Source: a virus
Virus record (IMG/VR): IMGVR_UViG_3300028392_000150
Location: 1-37,283 of that record
Length of the DNA: 37,283 bases
Reading direction: 5' to 3' (one strand)
Positions 2,773 to 18,700 of this stretch are shown here, piece by piece. Within the stretch, counting starts at the first letter, position 1, and each line of letters begins with the position of its first letter. The position numbers were made by a program, and so were the translations under genes. Under the pieces are notes generated by a model. That model made no database searches, was not told the DNA's origin, and worked only from the letters and a program-made list of their open reading frames with translations.

Positions 2773-3666
2773 TTATGACAGGCAGGCGTTGCGCTGCCAG
2801 TCAGCCAGCGACTGGGTCCGTAGCGCAGTGTCGAAGTGGGACTCCAAGTTTGCGGCATTGAGACGGGCGAGGGCGTTGACGCGGTTGACGGCCATCATGC
2901 GGCCGATTTCCATGTCACGCGGGTCGATCTCTCGGACGTGGACATCGAAGGGGAAGCTCGAGCGCTGCCAGATCAGCACGCCCCGCTTGCGCGGCCCAAA
3001 GCCGGCGGCCTCGGCCAGCAGGTTGTAGTAGGCCATCTTGAGGTGGTACTCGAAGCGGAAGAGGATGTTGGCCATCGCGTGCTCGTCGGTATCGTTGGTG
3101 GTTTTGAGGTCGACGCTTGCGTCAACGAAAGGGCCGGACATGGGAAGTAGGTCGAACAGACATTTGGCGCGGGTTCCGGGGATGATCGGGCTCTCGCCGA
3201 CTAGCGCCACTTGCCGCTCGCTGACAGCGTGGATTTCGCGGGCAAGAGCATTCTGATCGAGCATACGAACAGCCGCACGGGCATCTTGGTAAGCGAAGTG
3301 GGTCACCACTTGCAGGCCGGCAGAGCGCTTGTCGAAGTCCGCCCACCAGGCCTGTCGTTCGATCGAGGAGGCGCCGGGGTTTTTGGCGGCTAGCATCGCG
3401 TCGGTGGGCCGCTGCGGCGCGCTCTCTGGCAACACCACGTAGCAGCTGTTGAAGAGCTCTGGCGTAGTCCACAGCATGTCAACTAGACTACCATGCTCCA
3501 TTGCCGCAGTGGTGGCTTTGTCTCCTGAAAGCAGGAACAGTAATGGGTCTTTCGACCTGGTGAGGATGGAGGCGCTAACTGGCCCCGCTGAAGCAAGGTC
3601 GGGCAGTTTAGAGACGTCGAAGCGTAGGAGATGGTAGGCTTCCGGGGTGAGGTGGACTTGTTTCAT
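2773..3666 (-). CDS. PD-(D/E)XK exonuclease, RecE/exodeoxyribonuclease VIII-like
   Basis: 297 aa. The N terminus (MKQVHLTPEAYH) and 'HGSLVDMLWTTPE' at about 58-70 match the fold entry of RecE-type PD-(D/E)XK nucleases (family 'GTA.H.lll.pe'). The catalytic region follows: CLFDLLP (D172), then VDLKTT (D186, K188), then a conserved helix with HLKMAYYNLL. These enzymes resect double-stranded DNA 5'-3' and usually work with an annealing or ssDNA-binding protein for phage recombination. An OB-fold protein is encoded at 13.6-14.2 kb, but no Rad52/RecT-like annealase was recognised here. Family assignment rests on motif order; substrate is inferred. Confidence 0.8.
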   Translation of the reverse strand: MKQVHLTPEAYHLLRFDVSKLPDLASAGPVSASILTRSKDPLLFLLSGDKATTAAMEHGSLVDMLWTTPELFNSCYVVLPESAPQRPTDAMLAAKNPGASSIERQAWWADFDKRSAGLQVVTHFAYQDARAAVRMLDQNALAREIHAVSERQVALVGESPIIPGTRAKCLFDLLPMSGPFVDASVDLKTTNDTDEHAMANILFRFEYHLKMAYYNLLAEAAGFGPRKRGVLIWQRSSFPFDVHVREIDPRDMEIGRMMAVNRVNALARLNAANLESHFDTALRTQSLADWQRNACLS

Positions 3667-5279: not shown

Positions 5280-5680
5280 GGCGTCAGGATGACGATTGGA
5301 GGGGTGAGGTTCACCTGCACCTGTGGCGCCGACTCGGTGCGGATGTCTGCGTCCACTTCCTGTGGCGCCCGGTGCATCCAGGGCTCGTGTTGGATTCTTA
5401 GGAGCCAGTCTTGCAGGCTGGGGATTCGTCCGCAGTCTTCACGCACGTGTTGTTCTCCGATGTAGCGGACAGGCACAGTTTTGCCATCTGAGTTGACGAT
5501 GGTGGAGCCGAAGCGCCGTTCGCACTCGAAGATTCCCTGGGCGTGGTGACGTAGGGCGCGGTGGCGGAAGTCGGCGAGGAACTCTTTGGAGGCGTCGAAC
5601 CAGTCGTGGATCGCTGCGTAGTCGGATGCGAGGCCGCCGAACTTGCGGGCGGAACTAATGGAGTGGTGGCAAGGGTGCAT
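5276..5680 (-). CDS. DUF6915-type conserved phage protein
   Basis: 134 aa. The body reads 'SARKFGG...YAAIHDWFD.SKEF...RHRALRHHAQGIFE.E..FG.TIVNSDG..VPVRYIGEQHV.EDCGRIP...DWL', a strongly patterned phage/mobile-element family that I know as DUF6915. The many conserved His residues (HDWFD, RHRALRHH, GEQHV) could bind metal or form a catalytic site, but no activity is established to my knowledge. The last 25 residues are variable. Stop and next start overlap as ATGA. Confidence 0.7.
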   Translation of the reverse strand: MHPCHHSISSARKFGGLASDYAAIHDWFDASKEFLADFRHRALRHHAQGIFECERRFGSTIVNSDGKTVPVRYIGEQHVREDCGRIPSLQDWLLRIQHEPWMHRAPQEVDADIRTESAPQVQVNLTPPIVILTP

Positions 5681-5685
5681 GTCGG

Positions 5686-6096
5686 TCAGAGGTCCATCAA
5701 TTCAATGAGGTTGTCTTCCACATCCCTAACATCTTCACGCACTAGTTCGTAGACATGGCCGGTGATGTGCATATCGAGGTTTTCGAGATTAATGACAAGC
5801 TCTCCGCCTCCGCCTTCATTGTTGTACCAATCGTGCTGAACGTGGTCTTCGATGAGCTTGTCAACCACACTGAGCAGGATGCTCCAGGTTTCATTATCCG
5901 GGTTGACCACGCTGTCGGTGACTACTGAGTCGGCATGGCGTTTAACCTCCATCTCATCTATGCTGCCACTGTCGCCGCTACCGCTGAACGTCGCGTGTAT
6001 TTCGTATCCTCCAAGGTCGTACACCTCCGCTAGGATTCGGAGGGTGCTGTTCTCTTCCCGTCGTTTCATCCATGCGGGGTTGTGTTCTTTGCTCAT
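5686..6096 (-). CDS. DUF6878-like conserved phage protein
   Basis: 136 aa. The core 'YEIHATFSGSGDSGSIDEMEV' followed later by 'HDWYNNEGGGGELVINLE' matches my recollection of the DUF6878 family found in phages and mobile elements, where it often lies near DUF6915-like genes as here. The C terminus is acidic (EDVRDVEDNLIELMDL). It is the first - strand gene downstream of the 351-nt non-coding gap. Its biochemical role is unknown. Confidence 0.65.
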   Translation of the reverse strand: MSKEHNPAWMKRREENSTLRILAEVYDLGGYEIHATFSGSGDSGSIDEMEVKRHADSVVTDSVVNPDNETWSILLSVVDKLIEDHVQHDWYNNEGGGGELVINLENLDMHITGHVYELVREDVRDVEDNLIELMDL

Positions 6097-13644: not shown

Positions 13645-14163
13645 CTAAACTCCTTTTTCGCCGAACCACCACAAACTGTACCAGGCGGGGCAGTTTTGCG
13701 CGAGCATGATCGCCTCGTCGCGGCTGAAGCCATGATTCACGACCATCTCGTCAATGTAGAGGGAGGTGGCGCGTGCGCAGCGTTTCATCACCGAGGGCAG
13801 CTTGTCGTCGAGTGGGTCAGCGTGCTGAGACGCTGCGGGCTGTGGTGCCGCCTGGGTTTGGGGTGCGGGGTTGCTTCCCTGGATGTCCACGCGGCAGTCG
13901 TTGGCGTTGATGCTCACTTTGCCGTTGTATTCGTTGGTCTTGAGGCCGCCCTTGGGACCCGCGCCGGTGAGAGTGATCACTTGGCCTTCTTGGACTCCGC
14001 AATGTGCGCCGGCGCCCCAGATCTTCACCGCGCATTCGCCGGTGGCGTCGCTGGCGATAAGGAACAGGCTTTTGTCGCCTGGCTTGAATGGAAACAGGCG
14101 TTTAACGGTGATTGGGCCGAGACTCGGGCCTTCTCCTTGTGACTGGATGGTATGCAGGTTCAT
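13645..14163 (-). CDS. OB-fold single-stranded DNA-binding protein
   Basis: 172 aa. Residues about 14-80 show an OB-fold strand pattern typical of RPA-like or phage SSBs: GPITVKRLFPFKPG, KSLFLIASDATGECAVKIWG, EGQVITLTG, then 'NGKVSINANDCRV'. A Pro/Ala/Gln linker follows (about 88-110), and the C-terminal 55 residues (KRCARATSLYIDEMVVNHGFSRDEAIMLAQNC) form a helical module, perhaps for partner binding. It probably coats ssDNA for the primase-helicase and the RecE-type nuclease. It follows the E1 gene after 40 nt, and that gap holds a 14-bp palindrome copy. Confidence 0.65.
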   Translation of the reverse strand: MNLHTIQSQGEGPSLGPITVKRLFPFKPGDKSLFLIASDATGECAVKIWGAGAHCGVQEGQVITLTGAGPKGGLKTNEYNGKVSINANDCRVDIQGSNPAPQTQAAPQPAASQHADPLDDKLPSVMKRCARATSLYIDEMVVNHGFSRDEAIMLAQNCPAWYSLWWFGEKGV

Positions 14164-14203: not shown

Positions 14204-14881
14204 TTAACTGGCCGTCAAGACGGTTCCTGCGGGCGTGAAGTCCTTCGCGCGCCGGAACGAAGAGCAGAGCGTGTCGATCCGGGAGTGGACTACCGCGTGA
14301 AGAGGGTTGGCGACGTGTTCCCATGACAGCAGTAGGTGCATAGCGCAGCCGGCCGCGACGATATTGGCCATCGCGGTCTGTGGGAACTCCTCGAGCGTGC
14401 GCTCAGAGTTGCAGGACCATGGCGGTGGGTCAGTATCTGGGAACTCGAAGTGGTGGCGTGGGTCGTGCGCGTCAGGGATGAACAGGTGAGCTTCGCCGTG
14501 AGCATGGGAGTTGCCTGCCAGGATCGCCGGAATCCCCAGGTCTTCCGCCAGCTGCATGATGATGTGGCGTGACTGATTGTTGTCCACTGCGCCGAAAATT
14601 ATTTCCACGCCTTCCCATTCGGGCCAGTTGATGGCCATGGCTCCCTGCAAGTAGTGGGGCACCGCCTGGACAGACTGAAGAGTGGAGCCAGCAATACTTT
14701 CCGCCAGCACCACCGCTTTGTTACCGGTAGAAGTGAGAGCGGGGAACTGGCGAGCGGCGTTGGACGGCTCGTAGTCGTCAGCGTCGACGATCACGAGATC
14801 CATCAGGCGGCCGAGGATGGGGGCGAGGGTGCAGGCGATGCCGCCCGCGCCGATGATGGCGGCTTTTTGAGGCTTCTTCAT
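14204..14881 (-). CDS. ThiF/E1-like ubiquitin-activating enzyme (PRTRC ThiF-like)
   Basis: 225 aa from the ATG at 14881 (a TTG one codon earlier is less likely). Rossmann-type E1 adenylation fold: AIIGAGGIA (nucleotide loop, G11-G14), VIVDADDYEPSNAARQF carrying the canonical Asp (D33) plus the N41/R44/Q45 triad, a Lys at TGNK (K55), and FGAVDNN.SR (D100). A cysteine in PPWSCNSERT (C157) sits where minimal E1 enzymes carry the thioester cysteine. The size suits a minimal prokaryotic E1. It would adenylate the C-terminal glycine of the ubiquitin-like protein at 18476-18700 and pass it on by thioester. It is now separated from its partners by a tnpB element that abuts its start, which may affect its expression. 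Confidence 0.85.
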   Translation of the reverse strand: MKKPQKAAIIGAGGIACTLAPILGRLMDLVIVDADDYEPSNAARQFPALTSTGNKAVVLAESIAGSTLQSVQAVPHYLQGAMAINWPEWEGVEIIFGAVDNNQSRHIIMQLAEDLGIPAILAGNSHAHGEAHLFIPDAHDPRHHFEFPDTDPPPWSCNSERTLEEFPQTAMANIVAAGCAMHLLLSWEHVANPLHAVVHSRIDTLCSSFRRAKDFTPAGTVLTAS

Positions 14882-14969: not shown

Positions 14970-16124
14970 TTGGTTGAAGTGAAACTGACTGTCCAGATTA
15001 AACTGTTACCAACGCCCGAACAGGCGGAGTCTTTGCGCGAGACACTGGAGACGGTCAACAGCGCGGCGAACCGCCTGTCCCAACTTTCTTGGGACTCGAA
15101 GGAGTTCCGACGCTTTCCCCTGCACAAAACCTATTACCGTCAGATTCGAGACGAGTTCCCGCTGTCCGCACAGATCGTCTGTCTGCTCAACGCGAAGGTT
15201 GTGGACGCCTACAAGCTGGACAAGAAAGTTCAGCGCGTATTTCGCAAGCACGGCTGTATTGCCTACGACTCCCGAATCCTTTCCATGAATCTGATTCCGT
15301 GCACCGTGAGCATCTGGACGCTTAGCGGTCGCGCCAAGATGCCCTTTGTCTGCGGCGAGAAGCAGCGGGCTTTGCTTGCCTATCCCCGTGGCGAGGCAGA
15401 CCTGATTTTCCGCAAGGGAAAGTGGTTTCTGAACATCACAGTGGACGTTCCCGAAGACAAAGAGATTGAGGCTGTCGATTGCCTCGGGGTGGATATGGGA
15501 ATCGTGGAGATCGCCTACGACTCCGATGGAACGAACTATTCCGGTTCCCGCCTGAACAAGATTCGCAATCGCAATCGCTCTCTTCGCTGCAAGTTGCAGC
15601 ACAAAGGAACGAAGTCCGCAAAACGTCTTTTGAAGAAACGCAGCAAGCGAGAGGCGAACTTTGCTCGCGACGTAAATCACACAATTTCCAAACGCATAGT
15701 CCAAACCGCCAAACGCACGAACCGTGCTGTTGCCATCGAGAAACTGACTGGCATCAGAACGAGGATCAGGGCCAGACGGCGGGAACGGACAAGGCTGCAT
15801 AGCTGGGGCTTCGCGCAACTTGGAGGCTTTCTTGCCTACAAGTCGGCGGTTGCCGGTGTTCCACTGATCCAAGTCGATCCTCGGAACACGTCCAGACAAT
15901 GCTGCCAGTGCGGTCACACGGAGAAAGCGAATCGGAAATCTCAATCCGAGTTTGTCTGTAAGTCGTGTGGCCATGCTGAAAATGCAGACGGAAACGGTGC
16001 CAAGAACATCAGGCTTCGCGGTTTGGAGTTTTTGAGCACGGGCGCATTCAAACGCCCAAACGCGGAGGTAATTAACTGTGGCAAAATCCATGGTCGTATC
16101 CATCTGCAATCCGCATCCCTTTAG
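14970..16124 (+). CDS. tnpB: TnpB, RNA-guided nuclease of IS200/IS605 (IS1341-like) elements
   Basis: 384 aa from a TTG at 14970, or 381 from the GTG at 14979. The N-terminal 'VQIKLLPTPEQAESLRETL' is the standard OrfB start. The RuvC catalytic triad is complete: CLGVDMG (D175), AIEKL (E257), NADGNGAKNI (D340). The zinc finger between the last two is intact (CCQC 311-314, CKSC 330-333). TnpB proteins cut DNA as directed by an omega-RNA transcribed from the element's right end, which favours retention of the element. Length and motifs indicate a functional protein. Its expression would oppose the phage operon. Confidence 0.9.
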   Translation: MVEVKLTVQIKLLPTPEQAESLRETLETVNSAANRLSQLSWDSKEFRRFPLHKTYYRQIRDEFPLSAQIVCLLNAKVVDAYKLDKKVQRVFRKHGCIAYDSRILSMNLIPCTVSIWTLSGRAKMPFVCGEKQRALLAYPRGEADLIFRKGKWFLNITVDVPEDKEIEAVDCLGVDMGIVEIAYDSDGTNYSGSRLNKIRNRNRSLRCKLQHKGTKSAKRLLKKRSKREANFARDVNHTISKRIVQTAKRTNRAVAIEKLTGIRTRIRARRRERTRLHSWGFAQLGGFLAYKSAVAGVPLIQVDPRNTSRQCCQCGHTEKANRKSQSEFVCKSCGHAENADGNGAKNIRLRGLEFLSTGAFKRPNAEVINCGKIHGRIHLQSASL

Positions 16125-16141: not shown

Positions 16142-16786
16142 TTAGGATAGTTGGGATATTTTCTTGTGGAGAGGCAGGGAGGAGAGACTGACAGGTTCGC
16201 TCTCAGTATGGCTCATCACCGTGTTGAGGTGCCTGCCGGACATCATTCCACTAGGGGTGCGCCGATCAGAGAATCTGGTCGAGTCTAGCCCGGAAAGCTT
16301 TTCGGCTTCTTCATAGTTGCTGCGAATCATCCGGTAATAGGCCGGCGGTTCGGCTGCCACCAGCGCTTGCACGTGATAAACAATTGCGGGGACGCCGTTG
16401 TGAGCGTCGCGGTAGTAGCACACCTGAAACGCTTCCACTGCGTTGTGCAAGATTGCGGTGCGGCCTTGAAGGTAATAGTGGATGCTCAGGTTTTTGTAGC
16501 GCAGCTCGCTGAGTCGCTGCCAGACTTCTGTCTCCACTCCAATGGAGAGCGACTCTCGGGCACCGAGCCAGCGTGAGACAGTGGTTTCGAGCGGGCAACG
16601 GACTTTAGCGGCGGCTTCCTGGATAGCCACCATCAGCTCGCCGACGGTGGCGCTTGCCACTACCGGATGATTGTGGTCGAGGCTCTCGAAATCCAACTCG
16701 CCCGAGGCGGTCAGGTATCCGACCAGAGCTCGGTGGCGTCGAGCACTTCTTGCGGGATTGGGGTCGTGGTATTCCATGTGGGCCAT
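16142..16786 (-). CDS. Unknown protein of the ubiquitin-like cassette
   Basis: 214 aa from the ATG at 16786 (or 211 from 16777). Either start overlaps the end of the preceding gene by 66-76 nt, longer than usual here; a CTG at 16714 would give a 4-nt CTGA overlap and is a possible alternative. The protein is mixed alpha/beta with several aromatic patches (YYLQGRTAILHNAVEAFQVCYYRD; AYYRMIRSNYEEAEKLSGLD). No family was recognised. Its position directly after the E2-like gene makes it a candidate cassette component, perhaps an adaptor or target selector; that is inference. Confidence 0.55.
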   Translation of the reverse strand: MAHMEYHDPNPARSARRHRALVGYLTASGELDFESLDHNHPVVASATVGELMVAIQEAAAKVRCPLETTVSRWLGARESLSIGVETEVWQRLSELRYKNLSIHYYLQGRTAILHNAVEAFQVCYYRDAHNGVPAIVYHVQALVAAEPPAYYRMIRSNYEEAEKLSGLDSTRFSDRRTPSGMMSGRHLNTVMSHTESEPVSLSSLPLHKKISQLS

Positions 16787-17340
16787 TGGGTGATATTGAA
16801 AATGGGGCGAGGAAGTGCATTGGTGGAGATCCAAGCCCCATGAAGGGGCTCTCCTTGCCAATCAAGGTCCCTGTTGGCGCGGTTAAAGAGCAGCAGGTCT
16901 ACCGGCTCAAGACTAAGGGGATTGAAGGTAGCGCCAAGGCAGACGCCCTTGAACTTAGGCGAGGTGACCCAGGAGGATCCGTAGAGGTTGGAGCCTGCCA
17001 ACACCCCTCCTTCAGCATCGGTAAGGTGGATGGCTTCGGTGTTTTTGATGTCAGGGATGGTGAGGTAGACGATGCCGTCATACTGCGTCATCCGGCTCTC
17101 ACCCGTTCGCCCGTAGGACTGGAAGTGGCCATCCTCCGCTGAGGTATGGTAGAGCATCGGCATGCTGAGGTTACGGATGGCGAAGCGCGCCCAGCCCTCA
17201 TCCATATTGAGGAATTGGATCACATCAACCCTGCGTTCGCCTTGCATCCGGAAACGCTTCGACACCAGCACGGTGGAGGGTCCTTGGCCGATCTTAGCCA
17301 GTATTTGGCCTTTTTCGTTACGTTTGTAGGTGATTGCCAT
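16711..17340 (-). CDS. Possible E2-like conjugating protein (PRTRC protein B / Prok-E2 family D-like)
   Basis: 209 aa, starting 4 nt after the JAB stop. Strand-rich middle (YDGIVYLTIPDIKNTEAIHLTD) leads to the only cysteine, C134, in 'KFKGVCLGATFNP'. In bacterial E2-like families, including those of PRTRC cassettes, the active cysteine sits in a similar 'G.vC.G' setting before a proline. Gene order (Ubl, JAB, this gene, E1) also supports an E2-type role, accepting the ubiquitin-like protein from E1. A canonical eukaryotic HPN motif is absent, as expected for these divergent families. The assignment rests mainly on context and one motif. Confidence 0.5.
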   Translation of the reverse strand: MAITYKRNEKGQILAKIGQGPSTVLVSKRFRMQGERRVDVIQFLNMDEGWARFAIRNLSMPMLYHTSAEDGHFQSYGRTGESRMTQYDGIVYLTIPDIKNTEAIHLTDAEGGVLAGSNLYGSSWVTSPKFKGVCLGATFNPLSLEPVDLLLFNRANRDLDWQGEPLHGAWISTNALPRPIFNITQWPTWNTTTPIPQEVLDATELWSDT

Positions 17341-17344
17341 GGTG

Positions 17345-17998
17345 TCAGCTGGTGATCGAGACGCGCTCAAGGAGGTGGTGCCAGTCGAGCGTGCCGGGAG
17401 ACTGATGAACGTCAGCCCAGGTGGTTTCGGAGGTGAATAGGTTTTCCCACTTGAGCTTGTGGCCGCGGCTATTGTCGATAAGCGCGGTGATTTTGCGTTG
17501 GAGCGGGATCCGCATCCGGAAGTCAAGGTCGTACTTGGCCGCGCTGACGAGTTTGCCGAGAGTGATGTGCCACCCCGGGTTCTCAGCCTCATCACGGGCG
17601 TCGGTTCCGCTCTCGAAAGCCATCGTGTCGACGTGGGTATGGATGGTGCAGGCTGGGAAGAAGTCCTCTTTATAGAGAGCCGCGTAAGCGTCCAATAGCT
17701 CGGCATTGGGCTTGCTCGTCCAGTCCAGCGACACACTCAGGCCTTGGCCAGTACTGCGCTGCCAGGGTATGATGGTGTGGTAACGACGCTCGCCGGCGTG
17801 CCAGTGGTGGTAGGATACGCTCTCAGCCAGGTGGTTGATACTAACCTGGCGGTGGAAGCCGATGATGGCCTGCCACAGTGGCAGTGGGATGGGATGAAAG
17901 GTTCCCGCCAGGCGGCCTGGAGTGACGTCCATGGCAGCTCCGGCGATTTGGATCCTTAACGGCGGCGGCGCTTCGATGTTAACGGTCTGTGGATTCAT
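17345..17998 (-). CDS. JAB/JAMM-type isopeptidase (PRTRC protein A-like)
   Basis: 217 aa from the ATG at 17998; a longer frame lacks a better start. The zinc-protease signature H-T-H-x7-S-x2-D is exact (H120, H122, S130, D133) after the strand FFPACTIHTH. A Glu such as E60 (NHLAES) could complete the site. JAMM proteases cleave after the C-terminal diglycine of ubiquitin-like proteins, either maturing the precursor or removing conjugates. Here it could trim the five-residue tail after Gly-Gly of the neighbouring ubiquitin-like protein. It overlaps the HNH gene by 20 nt and precedes the E2-like gene by 4 nt, so all three are co-expressed. Confidence 0.8.
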   Translation of the reverse strand: MNPQTVNIEAPPPLRIQIAGAAMDVTPGRLAGTFHPIPLPLWQAIIGFHRQVSINHLAESVSYHHWHAGERRYHTIIPWQRSTGQGLSVSLDWTSKPNAELLDAYAALYKEDFFPACTIHTHVDTMAFESGTDARDEAENPGWHITLGKLVSAAKYDLDFRMRIPLQRKITALIDNSRGHKLKWENLFTSETTWADVHQSPGTLDWHHLLERVSITS

Positions 17999-18425
17999 AA
18001 GGAAGGAATGTGGCTGAGATTGGCGGCAGCACCGCGCGGGAGGCGGAGTTGACAATGTAGCCCATGCGTGCAGCCCAGCCGCGGAGTTGGTTGTGGAAGC
18101 CGTGGTGGCACTCCGCGCACACTGCCATCCAGGTAGATTCGTCCAGCATGTGGCGGCCGCGGCCTTTGCGGTGGTGGAGGTCGGTGGTCGGTCTGCCGCA
18201 GGGACCCGAGGGTCCGAGCACTCGGCAGCGCGGACGCTCCAGCATGAAGGGCGCCCGCAGGAGGCCGTACTGCAGGTTGATCGAGTGACGCTTGCTTTTG
18301 ACGGCCTTCACCGGCTTGCGCGGCTTGGGTTGCTTTACTGTGAAGCCGCGTTGGTTACAGGCGGCGCAGCCTGAGCCATTGCAGGCGCGGCATTTCTTTC
18401 CAGGTCGGAGTGGGGCGCGTTTCAA
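17979..18425 (-). CDS. HNH endonuclease with N-terminal zinc ribbon
   Basis: 148 aa from a TTG at 18425; no in-frame ATG lies near. N-terminal CRACNGSGCAAC (C12, C15, C20, C23) is a DnaJ-type zinc ribbon. The HNH core is DLHHRKGRG (H84/H85), then CAECHHGFHNQ (C103, C106, H107/H108, H111), with extra cysteines C67 and C76 completing a zinc site. The HNH part resembles phage and prophage nucleases that nick or cut DNA. It sits between the ubiquitin-like and JAB genes and overlaps the JAB gene, so it may be an effector of the cassette or an unrelated passenger. Confidence 0.75.
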   Translation of the reverse strand: MKRAPLRPGKKCRACNGSGCAACNQRGFTVKQPKPRKPVKAVKSKRHSINLQYGLLRAPFMLERPRCRVLGPSGPCGRPTTDLHHRKGRGRHMLDESTWMAVCAECHHGFHNQLRGWAARMGYIVNSASRAVLPPISATFLPYESTDR

Positions 18426-18426
18426 G

Positions 18427-18440
18427 TTGCGTTGACGAAA
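18427..18440. repeat. 14-bp palindrome, copy 3 (TTGCGTTGACGAAA)
   Basis: 13 of 14 positions match copy 4. It is immediately upstream of the HNH start (18425). A C/G hairpin (CCCCC at 18446-18450 with GGGGG at 18462-18466) lies just beyond, so the Ubl-HNH gap looks like a control point. Confidence 0.45.
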
Positions 18441-18475
18441 GTGTGCCCCCCCAGCCAGGCCGGGGGAGCGGTTGC

Positions 18476-18700
18476 TCAGTTGGAGCCCTTGTCTCCTCCG
18501 CGCGGGCGGAAGGTGACTGTCGCCCCATGGGAGAGTGGAGCTGAGTCGTCGACGCCTTGCCCGTCCACCGCGAGGGTGAAGGAGGATGGTGCGCCGATGT
18601 CGTCTAGCTCGTCCTGCATGGAGCGAATGTGGCCGGCCTCAGTCCCGTGAGGGAGGTCGACCGAGACGGTGGCCCCGCCGTTTGACAGTGTAACAATCAT
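18476..18700 (-). CDS. Ubiquitin-like protein (PRTRC protein C / Prok_Ub-like)
   Basis: 74 aa, close to ubiquitin's 76. The strand order fits a beta-grasp fold: MIVTLSNGGATVSVDLP (hairpin), a helix around HIRSMQDELDD, FTLAVDGQGV, and the last strand ATVTFRP. It ends RPRGG-DKGSN, so the diglycine comes after an Arg-x-Arg as in ubiquitin (RLRGG), followed by a five-residue tail. Such tails are removed by JAMM proteases, and one is encoded two genes downstream. It would be activated by the E1 at 14204-14881. It is the first gene of the cassette; its start has an A/C-rich, SD-less leader. Confidence 0.75.
   Translation of the reverse strand: MIVTLSNGGATVSVDLPHGTEAGHIRSMQDELDDIGAPSSFTLAVDGQGVDDSAPLSHGATVTFRPRGGDKGSN

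Follow-up and report, generated by a model that had tools for sequence, protein, structure and literature searches.

Discussion of bacterial ubiquitin-like systems has so far centred on a role in anti-phage defence or on their carriage by plasmids and mobile elements. The QbsE/QbsD pair of a ubiquitin-like protein (Ubl) and a JAMM protease may be a precedent for the pairing described below. In the PRTRC (type 6d) systems, separate genes for a Ubl, a JAB/JAMM protease and a ThiF-type E1 lie in one operon, and the C-terminal Gly of the Ubl has been described as highly conserved (PMC1779556). Iyer, Burroughs and Aravind (2006) predicted that the JAB both processes the Ubl and removes it from its targets, and that the E1 of such operons acts through a thioester (PMC1779556). 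The bacterial ISG15-like conjugation system BilABCD comprises a Ubl, an E1, an E2 and a JAB/JAMM protease, and BilC has been reported to cut the BilA precursor, opening its C-terminal Gly (PMC11354881). In phages, a Ubl lies next to a JAB in the lambda/T1 pair TAPI-TAPK, tail-assembly genes described without an E1 (PMC1779556). An open-access search found no literature on sets of E1, Ubl and JAMM carried by phages, nor on the biochemistry of PRTRC, although other reports may exist.

Here we describe a Ubl/JAMM/E1 set on a tailed-phage contig of 37,283 bases, an IMG/VR virus record that was analysed as a whole and is hereafter called the window. As in PRTRC/type 6d, the Ubl, JAB/JAMM and ThiF-type E1 genes are separate within one operon, and the Ubl is a standalone beta-grasp protein with a C-terminal G-x-K-G; in contrast to PRTRC, the set is phage-borne and an HNH gene lies between Ubl and JAMM. 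A Ubl, an E1 and a JAMM are also shared with BilABCD, but BilA contains a pair of Ubl domains and BilD is an E1 of two domains, whereas the Ubl of the window is single and its E1 is minimal and matches PADLOC ‘E1-E2’ models weakly. As in TAPI/TAPK, a phage Ubl neighbours a JAB, but here an E1 is part of the set, which is located towards the replication genes. The contig encodes a terminase large subunit (phrog_2, E 4.5e-8), a primase/helicase (phrog_239, E 3e-74) and, judging from sequence, probably portal-like and capsid-like proteins. The minus-strand order is Ubl, HNH gene, JAMM, gene X, gene Y, E1, an OB-fold-like protein and a 987-aa protein, and the features of the region are as follows.

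18476..18700, minus strand: Ubl gene, 74 aa, MoaD/ubiquitin-type beta-grasp (from the ORF, predicted fold and profile kinship)
18494..18499, minus strand: codons of Gly68-Gly69; Gly69 is the conserved family Gly, and the Gly68 column is variable
18485..18496, minus strand: codons of G69-D70-K71-G72, which form the conserved G-x-K-G end; the mature C-terminus is predicted to be Gly72
18479..18484, minus strand: codons of Ser73-Asn74, a two-residue overhang predicted from the alignment to be trimmed
17979..18425, minus strand: HNH-type endonuclease-like gene between Ubl and JAMM (phrog_740, E 2e-4; TTG start uncertain)
17345..17998, minus strand: JAMM/JAB metalloprotease, 217 aa (H120, H122, S130, D133; probable catalytic Glu59)
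16711..17340, minus strand: gene X, 209 aa, with Cys134 in GVCLG, a stretch also conserved in the related phage L002; an E2 role was suspected
16142..16777, minus strand: gene Y, 211 aa, 28% identical to the gene at the same place in L002
14970..16124, plus strand: TnpB, RNA-guided endonuclease of an IS200/IS605-type element, between Y and the E1 gene
14204..14881, minus strand: E1-like ThiF/MoeB adenylyltransferase, 225 aa, with adenylation residues and W-x-C intact
13645..14163, minus strand: possible OB-fold ssDNA-binding-like protein, after E1 in both the window and L002

The only closely related phage found, in a search that used JAMM, E1, gene X and primase as queries, is L002 (a 55 kb contig); identity to the window is 65% for its primase and about 52% for its E1, and two further scans brought up no nearer kin. 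Its gene order (X-Y-E1-OB-987aa homologue-primase) matches that of the window, TnpB being absent at that place, and its contig ends within gene X, before the position of Ubl and JAMM. In a search of phage records neither the JAMM nor the E1 of the window found a match, and the E1 of L002 found one weak match. The window TnpB (14970-16124) has no adjacent TnpA, and the Y and E1 genes overlap in L002. No obvious Shine-Dalgarno sequence precedes the Ubl, HNH, JAMM and X starts (window 16711-18700), which may bear on the host. The TnpB between Y and E1, and a C-terminal end of Y that differs from that in L002, would fit a system that has decayed or fallen silent, perhaps through this insertion in the operon, so that Ser-Asn is never removed. 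We consider this very improbable: Ubl, JAMM and E1 are unbroken as reading frames, keep their catalytic residues and have a coding-like base composition, which argues against decay.

Codon-position G+C in the Ubl ORF (0.67/0.52/0.75) is that of the neighbouring genes, and the ORF is therefore very likely a real gene. Its C-terminal residues, TVTFRPRGGDKGSN, read RPRGG-DKGSN, exactly as the initial annotation had it, and the JAMM protein that it placed two genes away, with H120, H122, S130 and D133, was confirmed with numbering from the ATG start. The ubiquitin-like character that it assigned to the protein was borne out by modelling: AlphaFold2, run with 15 phage relatives, gave a confident ubiquitin/MoaD beta-grasp (pLDDT 91) with strands at residues 2-7, 10-15, 41-45, 48-50 and 61-66 and a helical stretch at 22-35, and the best PDB matches of this model in Foldseek include ubiquitin, MoaD and Caldiarchaeum ubiquitin (E about 1e-4 to 1e-3, TM-score 0.6-0.7). 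The last three residues of the model are of low confidence, and the functional end of this flexible tail is not readable from the predicted fold. Pfam families and TIGR03738 (PRTRC_C) gave no match to the Ubl, its strongest named-family similarity being to MoaD (E 0.14). Without a match to this curated model, the name ‘PRTRC protein C’ lacks support.

This raises the question of where the working end of the Ubl lies. Gly accounts for 11 of its 74 residues, with a second GG at residues 8-9, so that a Gly-Gly near the end is not in itself remarkable; simple arithmetic puts the chance of GG at about 0.02 for a given adjacent pair, and the chance that the last eight residues contain such a pair at about 0.13. 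For comparison, plasmid PRTRC cassettes were taken from 11 records of distant bacteria, and IMG/VR was scanned with a degenerate DNA pattern of the JAMM motif that is blind to the Ubl tail. The scan returned at least 119 viral loci, although some of the contigs could be plasmids that have been classified as viral. An E1 is adjacent in most of these loci, and a Prok-E2_D-like protein is present in many. Ubl domains in the fetched loci were detected by profiles without their last six or seven columns. Among the 57 domains found with these tail-less profiles in viral loci and plasmid PRTRC protein C, G-x-K-G occurs in 53, a figure that is somewhat favoured and not fully independent, some profile seeds having been noticed via their tails, although the JAMM scan was not so biased. 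The remaining four end in K-G or N-G, and none of the 57 has Gly at the Gly68 column of the window.

The individual ends tell the same story. Plasmid PRTRC protein C sequences end in AAGTKG, AVGTKG, YGRKG, FGAKG and similar, some carrying a tail after G-x-K-G (AYAQV, or several dozen residues), and the nearest phage relatives end in [A/S/Q]-G-x-K-G with 0-5 residues after. In a 16-sequence alignment of the window with these phage Ubls, K71 and G72 never vary and G69 hardly does, and the relatives have Ala, Ser or Gln in the Gly68 column. The window Ubl fits this family end exactly, with G69-D70-K71-G72 followed by Ser-Asn. From this alignment the functional end is most likely Gly-Asp-Lys-Gly, three residues past the Gly-Gly, and because G-x-K-G is kept while the Gly68 column lacks Gly, the overhang is most likely Ser-Asn, two residues rather than five. 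Thus the suggestion of the initial annotation that Gly-Gly is the mature end was not supported; the homologues gave the very pattern that it had named as counting against this, a conserved tail without a conserved pair. Its remark that PRTRC protein C ends differently from Gly-Gly was right in so far as those ends are G-x-K-G, but the window Ubl has that same end.

The alternative, in which JAMM cleavage behind Gly68-Gly69 would strip off DKGSN and present the E1 with a ubiquitin-like RPRGG end, draws on the resemblance of RPRGG to the ubiquitin end RLRGG and on a second, large phage Ubl group, with its own JAMM and E1, that truly ends in K-x-Gly-Gly (NNKVGG, NNKTGG) with 0-11 residues after the pair (loci L019, L029, L033, L038, L058, L075, L104, L105, L106, L132 and others). 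In that group, however, the terminal Gly stands 8 residues past the last-strand aromatic (Y or W), which is the place of Gly72 in the window, whereas Gly69 stands only 5 residues after it. All three window proteins also score far better against the phage G-x-K-G group (Ubl 18.3, JAMM 65.9 and E1 72.5 bits) than against the K-x-GG group (2.9, 15.7 and 16.8 bits, respectively). Neither these scores nor the Gly-Gly spacing fits membership of the window Ubl in the K-x-GG group, which we rejected. Given also the complete lack of Gly at the Gly68 column in relatives that keep G-x-K-G, we regard a cut after Gly-Gly as distinctly improbable. In a tree of E1 sequences the two groups part with support 99, and the window, on a long branch, falls with the G-x-K-G sequences, but its placement with the K-x-GG sequences is not rejected by an AU test (p 0.39); since this tree alone is indecisive, placement was based on the profile scores of the three proteins.

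The 18.3-bit score of the window Ubl was obtained with a full-length profile made from 15 phage Ubls, the window sequence being left out, and none of 2000 shuffled sequences reached this value (best shuffle 7.3). By BLAST the window Ubl matches the Ubl of phage locus L081 (E 0.002), the match ending at the common GxKG. Single-sequence comparison with plasmid PRTRC C was not significant, and the window Ubl is therefore tied to the plasmid proteins via phage intermediates. The nearest relatives of its Ubl, JAMM and E1 are phage Ubl-E2_D-JAB-E1 loci (L081, L079, L048, L070, L115, L027 and others), which, unlike the window, mostly have a recognisable Prok-E2_D-like protein and in several cases a Ubl with an N-terminal extension. 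In L081 (9092-9589, minus strand) this extension matches Rho_N (E 1e-9), and the locus adjoins phage multi-subunit RNA polymerase genes; by eye, the extensions of the L048, L069, L070 and L134 Ubls are similar.

If G-x-K-G is the working end, many relatives are made as precursors. In the 53 sequences with this motif, 28 stop at once, nine have 1-5 further residues and 16 have 23-93; an overhang of 1-93 residues is thus present in 25, and five-residue tails include AYAQV, VILTK and IDVGL. Two phage loci go further and encode tandem Ubls. In L118 (IMGVR_UViG_3300046474_000237, 3081-3557, plus strand) two head-to-tail copies meet at GTKG-AG, and are identical at 66 of 66 amino acids and 166 of 198 nucleotides, all 32 base differences being silent; the gene adjoins Prok-E2_D, JAB, ThiF and terminase genes, the first three encoding proteins that score above the Pfam cut-offs. 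In L133 (IMGVR_UViG_3300037420_000929, 5300-5839, minus strand), on a contig that also has a terminase gene, the joint is GTKG-STGP and the copies agree at 66 of 67 amino acids and 174 of 201 nucleotides (27 bases differ). Such silent divergence with the protein unchanged points to selection on each Ubl unit, as in eukaryotic polyubiquitin, and joints directly after GTKG imply cutting there. Tandem precursors would need a protease, for which the JAMM of the same cluster is the obvious candidate. Maturation of the Ubl, at G-x-K-G, is therefore plausible from the sequences; of the tailed precursor originally proposed, the precursor is supported by the overhangs and tandem Ubls, and the five-residue tail after Gly-Gly is not supported. 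Trimming cannot be the sole job of the JAMM, as an overhang is absent from 28 of the 53 relatives. PRTRC protein C homologues on viral-classed contigs (L112, L031, L119, L026, L099 and others) often run 60-93 residues past AVGTKG, and on an Alicyclobacillus plasmid (L018, 4925-5866) an apparent PRTRC-type Ubl is fused to the JAMM N-terminus, with the joint near KKGATRG.

The partner proteins in the window carry the residues expected of their families. The JAMM has the exact H-x-H-x7-S-x2-D motif, the DNA pattern of which occurs once in the window (none expected in shuffles), and its Glu59 aligns with the conserved upstream Glu of JAMM/MPN+ metalloproteases. Its profile alignment begins at PRTRC_A position 82, so that JAB-N, with its conserved Arg and Trp, is not aligned. 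The E1 matches Pfam ThiF (E 7e-15) and a profile of PRTRC E1s (E 1.5e-16). The comparison with PRTRC thus has limits: PRTRC_C is not matched, PRTRC_A and PRTRC_ThiF scores are far below cut-off, no PRTRC-type JAB-N aligns, and no recognisable E2 and no ParB/E/F were seen. We describe the window as working like PRTRC/type 6d and do not file it as a member, because the PRTRC_C and JAB-N tests failed and the window has no more than a suspected E2.

Type 6d systems also include an E2-like protein, with a catalytic Cys and a His downstream of it, and an alpha-helical partner protein. No recognisable E2 was found among the window proteins. The claim that gene X is an E2 was dropped in spite of the C-L-G motif that it shares with L002, as profile comparison and a shuffle control gave it no support and its AlphaFold2 pLDDT is 49; gene Y, also in the operon, found no family in profile searches. 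Because no E2 could be shown, conjugation may be replaced in this phage by another use. One such use would be as a sulfur carrier like MoaD, ThiS or CysO, with the JAMM releasing or preparing the C-terminus, and MoaD is both the strongest named-family similarity of the Ubl and among its top Foldseek matches. We consider this unlikely: of the window proteins searched, none was recognisable as a sulfurtransferase, a cysteine synthase or the product of a cofactor gene, and Prok-E2_D-type proteins adjoin many of the related phage loci.

What the window itself offers, in genes, predicted fold, catalytic motifs, conserved end and kinship, is probably best explained as a divergent phage relative of the type 6d/PRTRC Ubl/JAMM/E1 systems, in which a short precursor with the working end G-D-K-G would be trimmed by the JAMM, activated by the E1 and likely conjugated. 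We suggest that the JAMM probably removes Ser-Asn after Gly72 and that the E1 would then adenylate Gly72 of the trimmed protein. The activated Ubl would most likely be joined to proteins, perhaps, as a guess from sequence, being passed on via Cys134 of gene X, and the JAMM may also reverse the Ubl-protein bond.

In this locus the phage itself encodes the Ubl, E1 and JAMM, and related phages add a Prok-E2_D protein and tandem Ubls. We tentatively suggest, as a reading that is possible though a little short of probable, that many tailed phages carry a complete Ubl conjugation pathway (Ubl, E1, Prok-E2_D-type E2 and JAMM) in which maturation takes place at a G-x-K-G end distinct from Gly-Gly, that some of them have a genuine polyubiquitin gene, and that the window represents a divergent, possibly E2-less branch. 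The conserved G-x-K-G end provides a direct, testable rule for the site of cutting and activation, and corrects the tempting Gly-Gly reading.
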